From positions 1 through 36,406 of the IMG/VR virus record IMGVR_UViG_3300034375_010508: a stretch of 36,406 nt of DNA. One strand, 5' to 3'. The notes under the pieces are model-generated. The model searched no databases, was not told where the DNA came from, and saw only the letters and a program-made list of their open reading frames with translations. The number at the start of each line of letters is the position of its first letter. The first letter of the stretch is position 1. Of this stretch, positions 12,977 to 25,634 are shown one piece after another. Position numbers and translations under genes: made by a program. Source of the stretch: a virus.

Positions 12977-13900
12977 ATGACTCCCATCAATCAAAACGCT
13001 GGTGGGGAAGTCATGCCAGAGGATGTATTCAGGGCTTTCATAGCAGGCAAGCCGGCGAACACTCAAAGAGCTTACAGGCAGCATCTTGCCAAGATTGCAG
13101 CATTTTTGGATATAGAATTTGAATCAAAAGAATATTTTGAAGCTTTGATTCAGTTTTCGCCTGCAAGGGCTATGCTGTACTTTGACTGGCTCTGTAATCA
13201 AGGCTTAAAGGGCCAGACGGTTAATCAGTACATCAGAACAGCGAGGCAATTCTTTGAATATCTTCGAGATGTCGGGCTAATTGATAGAAACCCCATAGGC
13301 AAGCATTTAAAAGCCTCAAAAGAGCCAGTATCTCAAGCAAAGCTTATATCTGACAGGCTTGTGCATCAGATGCTAGATCTTCCAGGCCGAGATGAAAAGG
13401 GGCTTTCTCAAAGGGCTATGCTTGCGCTGCTCTTCTATTCAGGGCTTAGAATCTCTGAAATCGTTCGCCTGAAATGGTCTCAGGTCAATTGGTCTGACTC
13501 GTATCTTGAGGGCGTAATCACAAAAGGAAGTAAAAAGAGGGATGTTCTACTGCATCAAATCCCGTTTAAGGCGCTTAAAAGGCTCTCTAAGAAGAGATTT
13601 CAAGTAGCCTATACTGGGAGTCATTTCATATTCAAATCAACGTACAGCGGAAAGCACGTTAGCTACAAGACAGCATATAGGTTTATTAAGAGAGTCTTTT
13701 CTGAAGTTGGGCTTGAGGATGGGTATTCTCCTCATTCTGGCAGGGCCACAGCTATTACAAATCTTTTGGATCAGGGCTTCTCTCACAGGGAGGTAATGGC
13801 TTTCTCTGGGCATGAATCTGTGCAGATGGTGGAGAGATACGACCGAAAAAGAAAAACTCTTGAATCTCCAGCAGCCTCTCTTGCGTATAATAAAAAATAA
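12977..13900 (+). CDS. Tyrosine recombinase / integrase
   Basis: A 307-aa XerC/D-type enzyme. The N-terminal half is a SAM-like core-binding domain (NTQRAYRQHLAKIAAFLD; PARAMLYFDWL). The catalytic domain has Arg158 (SGLRISEIVRLKW), the His253-x-x-Arg256 motif (HSGRATAITN), His279 (SGHES) and the nucleophile Tyr288 (ERYDRKRK), with family-typical spacing. It could integrate the phage into the host chromosome or resolve multimers. ATG 12977 follows AGGAGA by 9 bases. The presence of a regulator at 11005 favours integrase. No classical attP is evident directly beside it; see the tRNA fragment at 19110. Confidence 0.92.
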   Translation: MTPINQNAGGEVMPEDVFRAFIAGKPANTQRAYRQHLAKIAAFLDIEFESKEYFEALIQFSPARAMLYFDWLCNQGLKGQTVNQYIRTARQFFEYLRDVGLIDRNPIGKHLKASKEPVSQAKLISDRLVHQMLDLPGRDEKGLSQRAMLALLFYSGLRISEIVRLKWSQVNWSDSYLEGVITKGSKKRDVLLHQIPFKALKRLSKKRFQVAYTGSHFIFKSTYSGKHVSYKTAYRFIKRVFSEVGLEDGYSPHSGRATAITNLLDQGFSHREVMAFSGHESVQMVERYDRKRKTLESPAASLAYNKK

Positions 13901-14051: not shown

Positions 14052-14750
14052 ATGTCAGAAAATTCATTTTGGGTACTCATTCCATCATCATTATACCAGC
14101 TAGAGCTTGAGGCAAGAGACAGAGAGCTTTATGGCGTTCTGCTCGGCGCTTCTGCTAAGCATGGCTTTTGCTGGATGAGCAATGAGACGCTTGCTGAGAG
14201 AACAAAAACAAGCGTTGGAAGCGTAAAGCGCAGCATTGCCAAACTTGCTAAGCAGCATGTCATCAGGCTTAAAACTCAAAAAGATGGGATGCGCTGGGAT
14301 AGGCAGATTTATTGCCTGCTTGCGAAGGATCAAGATGATCTCTCGAAGGATCAAGATGATCTCTCCGAAGGATCAAAACAGGCCCCTACGAAGGATCAAG
14401 ATGATCCCATAGTAATAAATATAAATAATAAACTAGAGAAAGAAACCCCCCCACCCTCCACACCGCCAGAAAAAATTAAAAAACCGGGAAAGAAATATCC
14501 TCGAATCCTTCTCTCAGATGAGGAAAAGGGAAAGCTCATAACTCGATATGAGGAAGAGGGCTTATCCATTGAAGATGGCTTAGAGCGATTTGATGGCTGG
14601 GCTGAGGATAATCCTGGCAAGTTCAAAAAGAAGAAATCTCACTACAGGTGCTTGCTCGGCTGGGTGCTTGATGCCTGTATTGAAGCCGAAAAGAGAAGGC
14701 TGGATCTTGAACGCTCCAGAACTTATCTCGCTAATGCAGGGAGGCGCTAA
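14052..14750 (+). CDS. Replication initiator, winged-helix (lambda O-like role)
   Basis: A 232-aa protein; ATG 14052 after GAGGGG is preferred to an upstream in-frame start at 14007. The N-terminal ~95 residues form a winged-helix domain (RDRELYGVLLGASAKHGFCW, SNETLAERTKTSVGSVKRSI, HVIRLK) like phage replication initiators. A linker with KDQDD repeats and a Pro-rich stretch follows, then a C-terminal helical domain (SIEDGLERFDGWAEDNPG; HYRCLLGWVLDACIEAEKRR). The DNA encoding the linker contains four iterons and an AT-rich tract, so the protein probably binds its own gene and recruits host helicase. The neighbour encoding SSB supports a replication operon. Confidence 0.8.
   Translation: MSENSFWVLIPSSLYQLELEARDRELYGVLLGASAKHGFCWMSNETLAERTKTSVGSVKRSIAKLAKQHVIRLKTQKDGMRWDRQIYCLLAKDQDDLSKDQDDLSEGSKQAPTKDQDDPIVININNKLEKETPPPSTPPEKIKKPGKKYPRILLSDEEKGKLITRYEEEGLSIEDGLERFDGWAEDNPGKFKKKKSHYRCLLGWVLDACIEAEKRRLDLERSRTYLANAGRR
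14323..14406. repeat. Iterons of the putative replication origin
   Basis: Copies of the 18-bp unit CGAAGGATCAAGATGATC start at 14323, 14344 and 14389, and a partial copy (first 11 bases conserved) starts at 14366. Start-to-start spacings are 21, 22 and 23 bp, close to two helical turns. Each full unit contains the inverted repeat GATCA-AGA-TGATC. The partial third copy is out of frame relative to the other three, which suggests selection on the DNA rather than only the peptide. This matches lambda ori, where iterons lie inside gene O. Confidence 0.75.
14407..14440. other. AT-rich unwinding tract beside the iterons
   Basis: Directly after the last iteron the coding sequence becomes almost pure A/T (AGTAATAAATATAAATAATA, from 14411), as expected of a duplex-unwinding element of an iteron origin. 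It is still translated, giving an Ile/Asn-rich linker. Confidence 0.6.
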
Positions 14751-19700: not shown

Positions 19701-20570
19701 ATGATTAAGGGCTTTAATATCTCCACATGGCATCATCCAGGCACAGCAAAAGCATGGATAAAAGAAGCATCCCAGATGGGTGCAAACACAATAAGATATC
19801 AGATCACACCTTCAAATCTTCTTGTCTTACAGCACAGGCAAAGCTATCTCGATTTCATAAATGAAAGCATTGATGACCTTTTAGAAATCATAAACTACTC
19901 AGAAGCAAACAGAATCCCTGTTAAATATATAATTGATCTCCATGCTCCATTTAGAGGCTTAAACGAAAAAGGCCAGCACTATTGCCTCACAGACCGAGAA
20001 ACTAGAAAGCTCTGGAGAGAGGATCTAAGGCTCTTAGCTGACGTATTTGAGCCCTTTGACTCAGTAAAGGCTTTAGAGTTCATAAATGAGCCCCACACCT
20101 TCTCCAATAAAAGATGGGCAAGGCAAGCAAAAGTGGAGGTATCAAGAATCCGCAAATACTGGAAAAAGCAAATAGTTGTTCCCTGCCACAACATAGGCCC
20201 AAAAGAGATTGAGGACTTAGAGCCACTGAGACGCAAAAAGATTCTTTACACTGCCCACATGTACTCACCTTTTGAGATAACTCATGCAGGAATATACAAA
20301 CCAATAGACCTTCCCTTCCCAGCTCTTAAGCTAAAGAAAAGACTCTCAGAGCTTCTTGCCTGGAAGCAAAAGCACAGAAAGCCCCTCTTTGTTGGAGAGT
20401 TTGGATGCGTGGATCTGGCAGGGGCAGACATGCAGAGACGCTATATCTCAAGATGCGCTAAAATCTTTAACAGGAACAGAATAGGATGGTGCCTTTATCC
20501 CTGGAAGGATAGGCACATATGGAATTATGAAAGCTCTGGAGTTATCAAAGAAATCAAAAAGTATTTCTAG
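19701..20570 (+). CDS. Glycoside hydrolase family 5-like enzyme
   Basis: A 289-aa (beta/alpha)8 enzyme with GH5 landmarks in order. These are the strand-2 Arg (MGANTIRYQITP), strand-3 IIDLHAPFRG, the acid/base Glu130 in LEFINEPH, the H-x-Y motif at His186/Tyr188 (AHMYSP) and the nucleophile Glu233 in LFVGEFGC. GH5 enzymes cleave beta-linked glycans by a retaining mechanism. The substrate cannot be told from sequence. There is no signal peptide or virion-attachment region, so it would act inside the cell or after lysis. It has its own promoter-like element and lies in the accessory region, away from the tail genes. Confidence 0.85.
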   Translation: MIKGFNISTWHHPGTAKAWIKEASQMGANTIRYQITPSNLLVLQHRQSYLDFINESIDDLLEIINYSEANRIPVKYIIDLHAPFRGLNEKGQHYCLTDRETRKLWREDLRLLADVFEPFDSVKALEFINEPHTFSNKRWARQAKVEVSRIRKYWKKQIVVPCHNIGPKEIEDLEPLRRKKILYTAHMYSPFEITHAGIYKPIDLPFPALKLKKRLSELLAWKQKHRKPLFVGEFGCVDLAGADMQRRYISRCAKIFNRNRIGWCLYPWKDRHIWNYESSGVIKEIKKYF

Positions 20571-21514: not shown

Positions 21515-22708
21515 ATGGAAGTATTTCAGCAAGATATATCAAAGCTAAAGCCCTATGAGTTCAATAATAGATCTCATCCAGAGGAACAAGTTGAGAGGAT
21601 AGCTCACTCAATAAAAGAGTTTGGATTCAATCAGCCTTTAGTGGTGGATGTTCAAGATAATATCATTGTGGGGCATGGAAGATTCCTGGCAGCAAAAAAG
21701 CTCGGGCTCTCTCACGTTCCTTGCTTGATGATTGATGAGCTCACAGATGAGCAGATAAGAGCCTACAGAATTATTGATAATAAACTCCAGAATGATAGCT
21801 CATGGCTGCTCAACAATCTTGAGCTTGAACTTGGATGGCTTGAGGATAATGACTTTGATTTAGAGAAATACGGCCTCGATGACTTACAGGATCTCTTTCC
21901 TGAAGATGAGCCAGAAGTTGAAGAGGATGATTTTGAAGCTCAGGAAGATGAGAGTGAGCCATATATCAAGCTTGGAGATATGATTGAGCTTGGTAGGCAT
22001 CGGGTGTTGTGTGGTGATAGCTGCACAGATTGGTTTGAAGATATTGAGCCTGTTTTGATGGTAACAGATCCGCCTTATGGTGTTGAGTATTCAGCAGATT
22101 GGCGTGATGAGCTTCTGAATGAATCTAATAGAAGCATCGGAAAAGTTTCAAATGATGAGCGAGTAGATTGGACTGAGGTTTATAAAGCTGTAAATGCTCA
22201 AGTTGCCTATGTCTGGCATGACGGGCGAAACGCAGCAGAACTTTCAAAGAATTTACAAGATTCAGGCTATGAACTTGTGTCACAGATAATATGGGCCAAG
22301 CCTATGTTTGCCATAAGTCGAGGTGACTACCATTGGCAGCATGAGCCTTGTTGGTATGCTGTCAAGAAAGGCAAGAATCATAACTGGCAAGGCAGCAGGA
22401 GCGAATCAACTCTTTGGAAGATAGAAAGAGGCTGTAAAGACAAAACAGGCCACAGCACAGAAAAGCCTTTAGAGTGCATGGCAAAGCCAATAAAGAACAA
22501 CACAAAGCAGGGCGATATAGTTGCAGATCCATTTCTCGGCTCAGGCACAACACTGATAGCCTGTGAGCAGCTAAACCGAACATGCTACGGAATAGAATTA
22601 GAGCCTAAATACTGTCAAGTCATAATCGAGAGATACAAGAAGCACTGTGAGGATAAGAAAAAGCCTTTTGAGTGCAAAATAAATGGTGAGGCTTTCGATG
22701 GCGCATAA
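21515..22708 (+). CDS. ParB-domain DNA methyltransferase (beta class)
   Basis: A 397-aa fusion. Residues 1-100 are a ParB/sulfiredoxin-like nuclease domain (LKPYEFNNRSHPEEQVERIA; VGHGRFLAAKKLG). After an acidic linker comes a methyltransferase with motif IV (VTDPPYGVEYS) before motif I (VADPFLGSGTTLIACEQ), the order of beta-class adenine-N6 or cytosine-N4 enzymes. It would methylate phage DNA, for example to evade restriction or mark DNA for packaging. The site is unknown; GATC is worth testing because the iterons contain it. The ATG follows GGCTATAAAAAA with no ribosome site. It overlaps the small terminase region. Confidence 0.88.
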   Translation: MEVFQQDISKLKPYEFNNRSHPEEQVERIAHSIKEFGFNQPLVVDVQDNIIVGHGRFLAAKKLGLSHVPCLMIDELTDEQIRAYRIIDNKLQNDSSWLLNNLELELGWLEDNDFDLEKYGLDDLQDLFPEDEPEVEEDDFEAQEDESEPYIKLGDMIELGRHRVLCGDSCTDWFEDIEPVLMVTDPPYGVEYSADWRDELLNESNRSIGKVSNDERVDWTEVYKAVNAQVAYVWHDGRNAAELSKNLQDSGYELVSQIIWAKPMFAISRGDYHWQHEPCWYAVKKGKNHNWQGSRSESTLWKIERGCKDKTGHSTEKPLECMAKPIKNNTKQGDIVADPFLGSGTTLIACEQLNRTCYGIELEPKYCQVIIERYKKHCEDKKKPFECKINGEAFDGA

Positions 22709-23093: not shown

Positions 23094-23337
23094 AGCAATA
23101 GAACCTGAGACACAGGAAGAGGCTCATATTGACTATCAAGAACACCAGAGGCGACATGAAGAGCTTAAAAAGTTGCTGCTTGGCGTAAAGCGTGAAGAGC
23201 TGAGCAGGGAAATAATAAAGATGATTCTTGGGCTCTGTCTTGGGATAGCAGGCTTTTCTCTCTTGTTTGGTTTCGCTGATTGGAGGGTTGCTCTTGGTAT
23301 ATTCCTTGCCATTTGGGGCAATAATTACAGAGGATGA
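23083..23337 (+). CDS. 84-aa membrane protein between terminase genes
   Basis: ATG 23083 after AGAGGGAGAAGATA, overlapping the TerS stop. A charged N-terminal half (HIDYQEHQRRHEELKKLL, KREELSREII) is followed by two hydrophobic helices (MILGLCLGIAGFSLLFGF; WRVALGIFLAIWG). It ends overlapping the TerL start by ATGA. The topology could suit an i-spanin- or holin-like role, but the location within the packaging genes is unusual. Function unknown. Confidence 0.55.
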   Translation: MAHKAIEPETQEEAHIDYQEHQRRHEELKKLLLGVKREELSREIIKMILGLCLGIAGFSLLFGFADWRVALGIFLAIWGNNYRG

Positions 23338-25634
23338 GTCACATCTGGGCTCCACAGCCAGGGCCACAGCTTGCAGCAATAGAAGCCAAGTGGATAAATG
23401 AGCTTTTCTACGGTGGCGCTAGAGGTGGTGGCAAATCTGATTACCTCTTAGGCGATTATCTTCAAGATGTTTTTAAGTACAAAGAGAAGTGGCGTGGGCT
23501 TCTTGTTCGTCAATCCTACCCAGAGCTAGAAGAGCTAATTGCTCGCTCGCATGATCTTTATCCACCAACAGGGGCGGTCTGGGGAGAGCAAAAGAAAACC
23601 TGGACATGGCCTAATGGTGCTTTTATGCGGATGCGTTCAATAGAGAATGCAAGAGATGCTAAGAAATTGCAGGGGCATCAGTATTGCGTAGCAGTCGGCA
23701 CCCCCATATTAATGGCAGACGGCTCAGCAAAGGCTATCGAGGAAATAGTAGCAGGGGAGTATGTTCAGACCCTAGAAGGCGCTAAGCCAGTTATAGCTTC
23801 AATAGCTCCATATGAGGCTGAGTGTGTAAGGGTGAGCAATGCGAAGGGCGAGCAAATCAATCCTTTCTGGCATCCGATTTTAACCGTCGAGGGTTGGCAG
23901 TCGTACGCATCTCTTCTGGATAACGATTCCACAAAGTCTGAAGAGGGATTTCAAGAATGCGGCAAGCATCCTTCCTTGAGTGTTTCCGCAAGACTTTTAG
24001 AACGTGATCAGCAGTTGGGTATTGCCGATATTCGTGCCGCCAAGAAATCTTGTGATGCTTACAGCAGCTGTGGATTGTTTGATGAGAGCATTTCAATCGT
24101 CGAGAGGCTTCTTTCAAACTTATTTTGGGATTGCTTGCACATTTATAAACAAGCTGCACAAAATCATTATCATAAATCTTGGCCGACTCTCTTTGGTGTT
24201 TCACCATATGCTCTTGCTGGTTCTGTACCAGCTCAAGGTTCTCAATGTCATTATTCTGCTTATTGCCATCTCTATGATGCACAACTTCCTCTGGGAGTAA
24301 GAACCTACCAAGAGAAATCTCAAGGAAAAGGCGGTGCTGTAGCACCATCCCTCTTTTGTTACATGATGGATGCTCTGGGCAATATTCCATCAAATAGCCA
24401 TCAGATCGAAGAACAACATGAGTATCACCATCCTTATACCGGAGAGGTGAGGAGAGCGAGCGAGGGTAGTATTTACGACTCATTTGAAATGGCCCCTTGT
24501 GGCGTTAATCTAGTGGCGGACATACAGGTAAAAGATGCTAATCATTATATTACCGCAAATACAGGCATTGTAAACAAAAACTCATGGATTGGCTGGGATG
24601 AGCTACCTCAGTGGCCTGATGATAGAGCCTACAGGATGCTATTTGCCTGTAATCGTTCTGCAAAGGGAGTGCCAGAGAAGAGAATCAGAGCAAGTGGAAA
24701 CCCTGGAGGCGTGGGGCATCATTGGGTGAAAAACAGATTCATTGACGCAAATCCTTTAGGCTTTCAGATACAAAAAGAGCAGCTAAGAAACGGAATCTGG
24801 GAAAGGCTCTTTATTCCTGCAAAAGTCTGGGACAACAAGATACTGCTCAAAAACGATCCAGATTACATTCAAGCCCTGGAAATGGTTGGCTCTCCTGAGC
24901 TTGTCAGAGCATGGCTTGAAGGCGATTGGAACGTAATTACAGGGGCGTATTTCCCTGAGTTCTCAACAGATAGACATATTATCAAGCCCTTTGAGATTCC
25001 CCCTCACTGGTTCAGAGTGTTCTCTCATGACTGGGGCTCAGCTTCTCCATTTGCCTCTATCTGGGGCGCTGTATCAGATGGAGACTGCAACATACCAGCA
25101 GGGGCACTAGTCATATACAGAGAGCTCTATGGCGCATCAGGGCCAAATCAGGGGCTAAAGATGCAGAACAAAGACATTGCAGCCATGACTCTCTCAAAAG
25201 AGGCTAAGAATGAGAAAATATCTCTTCGAGTAGCTGATCCAGCATGCTTTCACCAGGATGGAGGCCCATCAATAGCTGAAGATTATAGAAAAGAGGGCTT
25301 AACAGTAAGAGCAGCAGACAATAAGCGAGTCCCTGGATGGCAGCAGATAAGGGGGAGGCTTATAGGGCAAGATGACAGGCCCATGATCTATTTCTTCGAC
25401 ACTTGCAAGGATTTAATCAGAACTTTACCAGCTCTCCAGCATGATGAGCGAAAGCCTGAAGATGTGGACACAGAGGGAGACGACCACTTAGCTGATGCGT
25501 TAAGATATATGGCGATGAGTCGGCCATATATGAGGCCAAAACCTGTTGAGGAAAAGCCAAGATACCTTAACAAGATGACCATCAATGAGCTTTGGGCAAA
25601 TAAGGGCAGCAGAAGAAAACCAGGCAGGATTTAG
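23334..25634 (+). CDS. terL: Large terminase subunit (TerL) interrupted by an in-frame intein
   Basis: A 766-aa precursor. Walker A GGARGGGKS is at 27-35. The Walker B strand reads IGWDELPQW with Asp422-Glu423. The nuclease domain shows FSHDWGSASPF, VADPACF and GDDHLADALRYMAMS. Residues 118-416 are an intein, so the spliced ATPase-nuclease is 467 aa, normal for the family. The extein junction is LQGHQY then SWIGWDE, immediately before Walker B, so splicing is needed for packaging. The protein cuts concatemeric DNA and pumps it into the prohead. ATG 23334 overlaps the preceding stop (ATGA), and the portal gene starts directly after the stop. Confidence 0.95.
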   Translation: MSHIWAPQPGPQLAAIEAKWINELFYGGARGGGKSDYLLGDYLQDVFKYKEKWRGLLVRQSYPELEELIARSHDLYPPTGAVWGEQKKTWTWPNGAFMRMRSIENARDAKKLQGHQYCVAVGTPILMADGSAKAIEEIVAGEYVQTLEGAKPVIASIAPYEAECVRVSNAKGEQINPFWHPILTVEGWQSYASLLDNDSTKSEEGFQECGKHPSLSVSARLLERDQQLGIADIRAAKKSCDAYSSCGLFDESISIVERLLSNLFWDCLHIYKQAAQNHYHKSWPTLFGVSPYALAGSVPAQGSQCHYSAYCHLYDAQLPLGVRTYQEKSQGKGGAVAPSLFCYMMDALGNIPSNSHQIEEQHEYHHPYTGEVRRASEGSIYDSFEMAPCGVNLVADIQVKDANHYITANTGIVNKNSWIGWDELPQWPDDRAYRMLFACNRSAKGVPEKRIRASGNPGGVGHHWVKNRFIDANPLGFQIQKEQLRNGIWERLFIPAKVWDNKILLKNDPDYIQALEMVGSPELVRAWLEGDWNVITGAYFPEFSTDRHIIKPFEIPPHWFRVFSHDWGSASPFASIWGAVSDGDCNIPAGALVIYRELYGASGPNQGLKMQNKDIAAMTLSKEAKNEKISLRVADPACFHQDGGPSIAEDYRKEGLTVRAADNKRVPGWQQIRGRLIGQDDRPMIYFFDTCKDLIRTLPALQHDERKPEDVDTEGDDHLADALRYMAMSRPYMRPKPVEEKPRYLNKMTINELWANKGSRRKPGRI
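23685..24581 (+). other. Intein in TerL (Hint splicing domain split by an antisense HEG)
   Basis: 299 residues, TerL 118-416. Block A begins CVAVGTPILMADGSAKAIEE with Cys118. Block B contains INPFWHPILTVEGW with His180. The C-terminal blocks read VADIQVKDANHYITANTG then IVNKN, and Ser417 is the +1 residue. The penultimate position is Lys rather than the usual His. Between the Hint halves the sense-strand peptide is rich in Cys, His, Tyr and Ser and looks unlike any LAGLIDADG or HNH endonuclease. The HNH endonuclease is encoded there on the other strand. Splicing is inferred from motifs and from the otherwise interrupted Walker B. Confidence 0.9.
23857..24483 (-). CDS. HNH homing endonuclease on the antisense strand of the intein
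   Basis: A 208-aa protein with ATG at 24483 and an AAGGGG site 9 bases before it. Residues about 22-95 form an HNH_3-type core: THVVLRSDGYLMEY, LQHRLFLEISLGRFLLPEEV, VVHHRDGNKQNNDIENLELV and QNQQEHMVKHQ. Two C-terminal HTH-like units (SLKEASRRLKCSHQTIHSCC; KDACRILEIPLQTLWN) would bind DNA. It lies wholly inside the intein, from the codon of TerL residue 175 to residue 384, leaving about 32 Hint residues at the C-side. The likely target is intein-less terL. Relative phase: codon position 1 faces codon position 1, so sense wobble bases face antisense second positions. Confidence 0.88.
   Translation of the reverse strand: MSRKYYPRSLSSPLRYKDGDTHVVLRSDGYLMEYCPEHPSCNKRGMVLQHRLFLEISLGRFLLPEEVVHHRDGNKQNNDIENLELVQNQQEHMVKHQRESAKIYDNDFVQLVYKCASNPKISLKEASRRLKCSHQTIHSCCKHHKISWRHEYRQYPTADHVLKVLRKHSRKDACRILEIPLQTLWNRYPEEMRTTANPRRLKSDARKD

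Follow-up and report, generated by a model that had tools for sequence, protein, structure and literature searches.

Few phage origins have been mapped so far. Previous studies placed lambdoid origins midway through gene O, where the lambda O protein binds the iterons and an A/T tract is opened, and showed that iteron mutants fail to replicate (PMC7466680). In plasmid pSK41 the origin consists of four Rep boxes located centrally in rep, which code for a dispensable linker, and in plasmid pPR9 the N-terminus of Rep is a pfam13730 domain and the rep region replicates autonomously (PMC5703833). At Vibrio oriII, RctB needs fully methylated GATC iterons (PMC2865523).

Here, we analyzed a virus record of 36,406 bp (the window, meaning this whole stretch of DNA) and found a replication initiator gene that contains an array of repeats and an A/T-rich tract (Table 1). 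Judging from the sequence and from known origins, array and tract very probably form a phage replication origin on the lambda plan, with the initiator binding its own linker-coding DNA. The origin appears to be of an ordinary kind, well supported by comparison, and the part worth following is the comparative rule that connects the initiator with the arms of its iterons.

In the AlphaFold model the protein is laid out as an N-terminal winged helix (HTH_36), a disordered linker (residues 94-154 predicted disordered) and a helical C-terminal part, the C-terminal third being helical with low-to-moderate model confidence. The Pfam scan, at E up to 0.05, found HTH_36 (PF13730, 29.3 bits, cut-off 25) and no RepA_N domain, and the PHROG matches were the replication initiation families phrog_428, 270, 678, 391 and 345, among which 678, 391, 345 and 270 are the families of lambda O (phrog_391, 678, 345) and P22 gp18 (phrog_345, 678, 270). 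The N-terminal domains of plasmid initiators 4pql, 4pt7 and 5kbj were among the best PDB structural matches of the winged helix. A weak PHROG match to phrog_13246 (replisome-organizer, E 2.4e-4) covered residues 110-215, and the C-terminal region may act as a helicase or primase contact.

Table 1. Features of the initiator gene and of the putative origin inside it (positions are those of the window).
Feature	Positions	Strand	Remarks
Initiator gene	14052..14750	+	ATG start, 232 aa; PF13730, PHROG initiation families, AlphaFold model
Winged-helix DNA-binding domain, residues 12-88	14085..14315	+	AlphaFold model, pLDDT mostly 75-93
Recognition helix, residues 55-67 (VGSVKRSIAKLAK)	14214..14252	+	AlphaFold model and alignment of relatives
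Iteron 1, GGAT-CAAGATG-ATCT	14327..14341	+	
Iteron 2, GGAT-CAAGATG-ATCT	14348..14362	+	
Iteron 3, other frame, degenerate right arm, GGAT-CAAAACA-GGCC	14370..14384	+	copy originally called partial
Iteron 4, GGAT-CAAGATG-ATCC, perfect outer dyad	14393..14407	+	
A/T-rich tract, probable unwinding element	14410..14443	+	85% A+T over 34 bp
C-terminal helical region, residues 156-229	14517..14738	+	resembles phage replisome-organizer family

The anatomy of the array can be read directly. The 18-mer CGAAGGATCAAGATGATC was present in exact copies at 14323, 14344 and 14389 and a partial copy, CGAAGGATCAA, at 14366, which agreed with the original prediction of three full and one partial copies, and no further copy of CGAAGGATCAAGATGATC was present in the window at up to 3 mismatches (0.03 expected by shuffling). 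The start-to-start spacings were 21, 22 and 23 bp, the partial copy lying 22 bp after the second copy and 23 bp before the last; the near-21-bp phasing proposed for the linker-coding part of the winged-helix initiator was thus confirmed, as was the placement of the partial copy in a different reading frame. The array covers codons 91-119 of 232 and falls in the disordered linker that follows the winged helix. On closer reading of the sequence, the natural repeat unit is a dyad of 15 bp, GGAT-CAAGATG-ATCY. The copy described as partial is an iteron of full length whose right arm is degenerate, GGAT-CAAAACA-GGCC; its presence in another frame stood, and its description as partial did not. Shuffling placed a piece of the iteron as long as 11 bases in the 27-base spacer only 4 times in 100,000, so the out-of-frame copy argues for preservation at the DNA level.

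In register with lambda, the iteron takes the 15-bp form N4-CARAWYG-N4'. The annotated lambda iterons read CCCT-CAAAACG-AGGG, CCCC-TAAAACG-AGGG, CCCT-CAAATTG-GGGG and CCCT-CAAAACA-GGGG in this register, with window iteron 3 comparable to lambda iteron 4, and since the partial copy is a full-length dyad in the lambda register the window has four iterons, as in lambda. In lambda an 80% A+T stretch starts 3 bp downstream of the iterons. The A/T tract predicted 3' of the window array was found as well, with an A+T content equalled at 0.11% of window positions. GC skew, which had been put forward as a check on the origin, was uninformative, being positive almost throughout the window with no switch at the array.

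Relatives were sought in several ways. A protein search with the initiator in annotated phages and viral contigs gave only the near-identical contig L002, which starts 3' of the array, and no close relative of the window initiator with its array was found in these two collections. The start of the phage contig L002 (1-300) falls inside a C-rich tract directly 3' of the A/T tract and may reflect an assembly break. The neighbour gene, used as bait, gave one relative of the annealing protein and no initiator recognised there, and a single 14-bp iteron pattern gave only chance matches in viral contigs. A scan for a period-21 GATC pattern gave mostly low complexity, yet it yielded the first true relatives (L208, L213 and L228); matches from the genome-contig scan were set aside, being mostly DHDDHD-type repeats.

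We then scanned viral contigs for two nearby GATCA-NNN-TGATC dyads, followed by open-frame analysis, and obtained numerous winged-helix initiators of phages whose linkers carry GGATCAAAATGATCC-type repeats, read in two or three frames. In contig L276 the five copies switch back and forth between two frames, and all three frames are used in L306, L261 and L253; the same repeat DNA encodes unrelated peptides such as DQNDP, IKMIP and GSKRS. When contig-derived initiators were grouped at 70% identity into 30 clusters, the arrays occupied more than one reading frame in 26, 48 of 62 spacings were not divisible by 3, and A+T content in the 60 bp 3' of the array exceeded that of the flanking coding DNA in 27 (P 2.6e-5). 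Because the loci from the dyad scan had been selected for GATC, a second set was taken by protein similarity only: 14 named-phage initiators similar to the L276 protein, with repeats sought de novo, to which lambda and P22 were added (16 in all, chosen without regard to the motif). Most of the 16 had linker dyads in one register, N4-CARAWYG-N4', and the named-phage arrays mostly comprised 2-5 dyads, usually 22-24 bp apart and in mixed frames, for example GTAT-CAAAATG-ATAC in Staphylococcus phage Sebago, TGGT-CAAAATG-ACCA in Bacillus phage BhaS-171, AGGG-CAAATTG-CCCT in Erwinia phage PEp14 and AGGT-CAAAATG-ACCT in Providencia phage PSTCR8lys. Among the initiators surveyed, no clear array of this form was seen in Pseudomonas phage AF, Stenotrophomonas phage Suso and three plasmid-borne initiators. 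Conservation at the DNA level was thus observed among relatives, and the mixed frames in 26 of 30 arrays, seen in the comparison with related phages that had been proposed as a check, support the view that the iterons are preserved as DNA rather than as the KDQDD peptide; this part of the original prediction is upheld by the mixed-frame relatives, not by the in-frame copies.

When characterizing the winged helices, we observed covariation between the recognition helix and the iteron arms, which ties the initiator protein to the repeats. Staphylococcus phages Sebago and 96 have an identical domain up to the recognition helix, followed by LITIKRTIYS in Sebago and ERTIKRTFGS in phage 96, and their arms are GTAT and GGGA, respectively. 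After alignment of the initiators' winged helices, we defined X as the residue before T/S in S-x-X-[TS]-[IVLT]-[KR]-R. Mutual information with the arm was highest at X among 40 alignment columns (z 7.4; next 4.2), with shared ancestry within clusters only partly controlled in these covariation statistics, and the arm was predicted in 29/32 cases by X, with a grouping of X widened after the data had been seen, and in 17/32 by the nearest neighbour over the rest of the domain. From these sequences we consider it reasonably probable that the three arm bases beside the fixed core CARAWYG follow from a single residue, X, where the initiator's recognition helix starts, and the assignment that we moderately favour would be P/G/A/V/I for GAT, D for GGG, S (also A/T) for GGT, K/R for GGA and I/M for TAT.

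As a hold-out, the predicted residue for each arm was written down before viral contigs were scanned for GGG, GGT and GGA arms. Of 18 clusters, 12 matched exactly, against a permutation mean of 5.3 (P 7e-5), in a set that leaves out three ORFs judged post hoc not to be winged-helix (12/21 with them) and that is not perfectly clean, as a few of its entries (Hafnia yong2, Erwinia PEp14, L462 and L463) had been part of the discovery set; these fall into larger clusters. The misses were mainly A or T in place of S for GGT, plus two R. Moreover, the plasmid initiator of Limosilactobacillus pMSJK0025, fetched without regard to arms, had X = P and GGAT arms, as predicted. The window combines Gly56 (codon 14217-14219), which the AlphaFold model puts at the N-terminal end of the recognition helix, at the position that covaries with the arms in relatives, with GAT arms; it belongs to the discovery set and is therefore consistent with the rule, not independent of it. 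ACC arms, outside the stated rule, were seen in Geobacillus and Levilactobacillus phage-plasmid initiators (L709:701-1471, L710:701-1447). We found no earlier description of a helix-arm rule in the literature searched, which left out most subscription journals, and the rule may be new.

The repeat could also be a feature of the peptide, namely acidic KDQDD repeats of the linker, or have arisen by neutral tandem duplication, with the DNA similarity as a by-product, which would agree with three copies in one frame, a linker predicted to be disordered and an array GATC number that is not unusual under synonymous shuffling: at least 7 GATCs arose in 10% of synonymous codon shuffles, because the initiator gene uses GAT almost exclusively for Asp. 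GATC enrichment was rejected on this result as proof of DNA selection, and with the codon-shuffle control negative the three in-frame copies alone do not show DNA-level selection. However, the third copy is out of frame, and the relatives, which read the same DNA into unrelated peptides and have mixed-frame arrays in 26 of 30 clusters, already largely refute this peptide or duplication reading, which we regard as extremely improbable. Repression of the own gene is common among initiators and binding sites by themselves are no proof of initiation, so the iterons might be mainly an operator for autorepression or copy control, with the origin elsewhere; yet the array starts over 270 bp 3' of the start codon, inside the gene and not at the promoter, an A/T tract follows it, the window has no other copy at the mismatch level searched, and in lambda and pSK41 this layout has been proven to be an origin (PMC7466680, PMC5703833). 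We judge a mainly regulatory role very improbable.

The paired GATCs present in three of the window iterons had been suggested to link replication to adenine methylation by the host or by the phage methyltransferase. Seven of the window's 117 GATCs fall in 14328-14406; in the whole window GATC is under-represented (117 vs 144 expected, sd 10). Paired sites that make binding depend on host Dam or on the phage enzyme, as for RctB at Vibrio oriII, where fully methylated iterons are needed (PMC2865523), would fit these pairs and the gene at 21515-22708, which encodes a fusion of a ParB N-terminal domain with an N6/N4 DNA methyltransferase (phrog_498) and whose PHROG and Pfam matches indicate no Dam-type specificity. 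However, related initiators keep the core (CAAAWTG) beside arms such as GTAT, GGGA, AGGG, AGGT and CCCT that form no paired GATC, and arm type goes with the helix residue, which accounts for GATC without methylation. The window GATC is simply the arm GAT plus the core C, and the pairing is one arm type rather than a family feature, because the outer arms vary among relatives. The methylation link was thus not supported as a conserved feature, and a methylation-gated origin is improbable; we keep some room for a methylation effect in the window since RctB at oriII shows that methylation-dependent iteron binding exists, though no result obtained for the window indicates such an effect.

To return to the proposed lambda-type origin, the most likely course, by analogy with lambda (PMC7466680) and pSK41 (PMC5703833), is that the initiator binds the DNA coding for its own linker and opens the tract at 14410-14443. 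The winged-helix N-terminal domain would bind the four dyad iterons in the DNA for its own flexible linker, the assembled initiator complex would bend and strain the DNA, the adjacent A/T tract would be opened, and the C-terminal region would bring in the host replicative helicase or primase; we infer from the known systems that binding in the window phage, unwinding, helicase loading and the start of replication take place at the array and its A/T tract, for which the helix-arm covariation gives indirect support. No recognisable helicase, helicase loader or primase gene lies beside the initiator among the ORFs tested, and the two 104-aa ORFs that follow it matched no Pfam or PHROG family. The first of these was considered as a Sebago-type helicase loader and rejected, having no similarity.

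Elsewhere in the window, a tyrosine recombinase gene (12977-13900) is flanked by a Rad52/Erf-like annealing gene and by the initiator gene, a position that is unusual for a phage integrase, and a glycosyl hydrolase family 5 (cellulase) gene is located at 19701-20570 (PF00150, E 3.7e-23). The large terminase gene (23334-25634, 766 aa) has Hint/Hom_end-like matches at about residues 118-198, with the terminase profile match split across them, and the insertion is probably an intein that includes a homing endonuclease part.

With iterons of a fixed form within the initiator gene, origins can be located from sequence alone, and this form was seen in phages of Bacillota and Pseudomonadota hosts and in phage-plasmids. 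If the rule is causal, origin specificity and compatibility could be deduced from sequence for many phages and phage-plasmids, and the Gly56-GAT pair of the window would be one instance. The helix-arm covariation predicts, in a testable way, the origins on which a given initiator acts. It bears on incompatibility, the recombination of replication modules and origin-targeting antagonists that mimic initiator specificity, as ICP1 Odn does in targeting the PLE origin (PMC8263062).

Among known systems, Vibrio cholerae oriII with RctB resembles the window in having iterons that contain GATC, whereas RctB sites are 11/12-mers outside such a gene architecture and GATC is not conserved among relatives of the window initiator. 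The RepA_N plasmid initiators (pSK41 Rep; 4pql, 4pt7, 5kbj) and the hybrid pPR9 Rep share with it an origin (putative in the window) central in the initiator gene, an N-terminal winged helix and a linker, dispensable in the plasmids (PMC5703833); the fold is similar, but the window protein does not match the RepA_N Pfam family. The N-terminus of pPR9 Rep is pfam13730, as in the window, a likeness drawn from the published description (PMC5703833), and by this analogy pPR9 is the closest functional test in the literature for a window-type initiator. The PF13730 (HTH_36) phage initiators (Staphylococcus phages Sebago and 96, Limosilactobacillus pMSJK0025, uncultured L213, L276 and L306) also have the winged helix and linker iterons with the core CAAAATG, and the GGAT arm is common to the window, pMSJK0025, L276 and L213; other PF13730 phages differ in their arms and C-terminal regions, and the Staphylococcus phages encode a helicase loader and DnaB next door. 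Compared with lambda, the window has arms GGAT and not CCCT, very low sequence identity, a recognition-helix motif of the SVKR type, unlike lambda's, and no lambda P-like gene recognised beside the initiator. The lambda-type architecture itself was borne out: like the origins of lambda (in gene O) and P22 (in gene 18), the window has dyad iterons of the form N4-CARAWYG-N4' in linker-coding DNA, 20-24 bp apart and in mixed frames, four in number in both lambda and the window, with an A/T tract immediately 3' and an initiator of O-like profile families.
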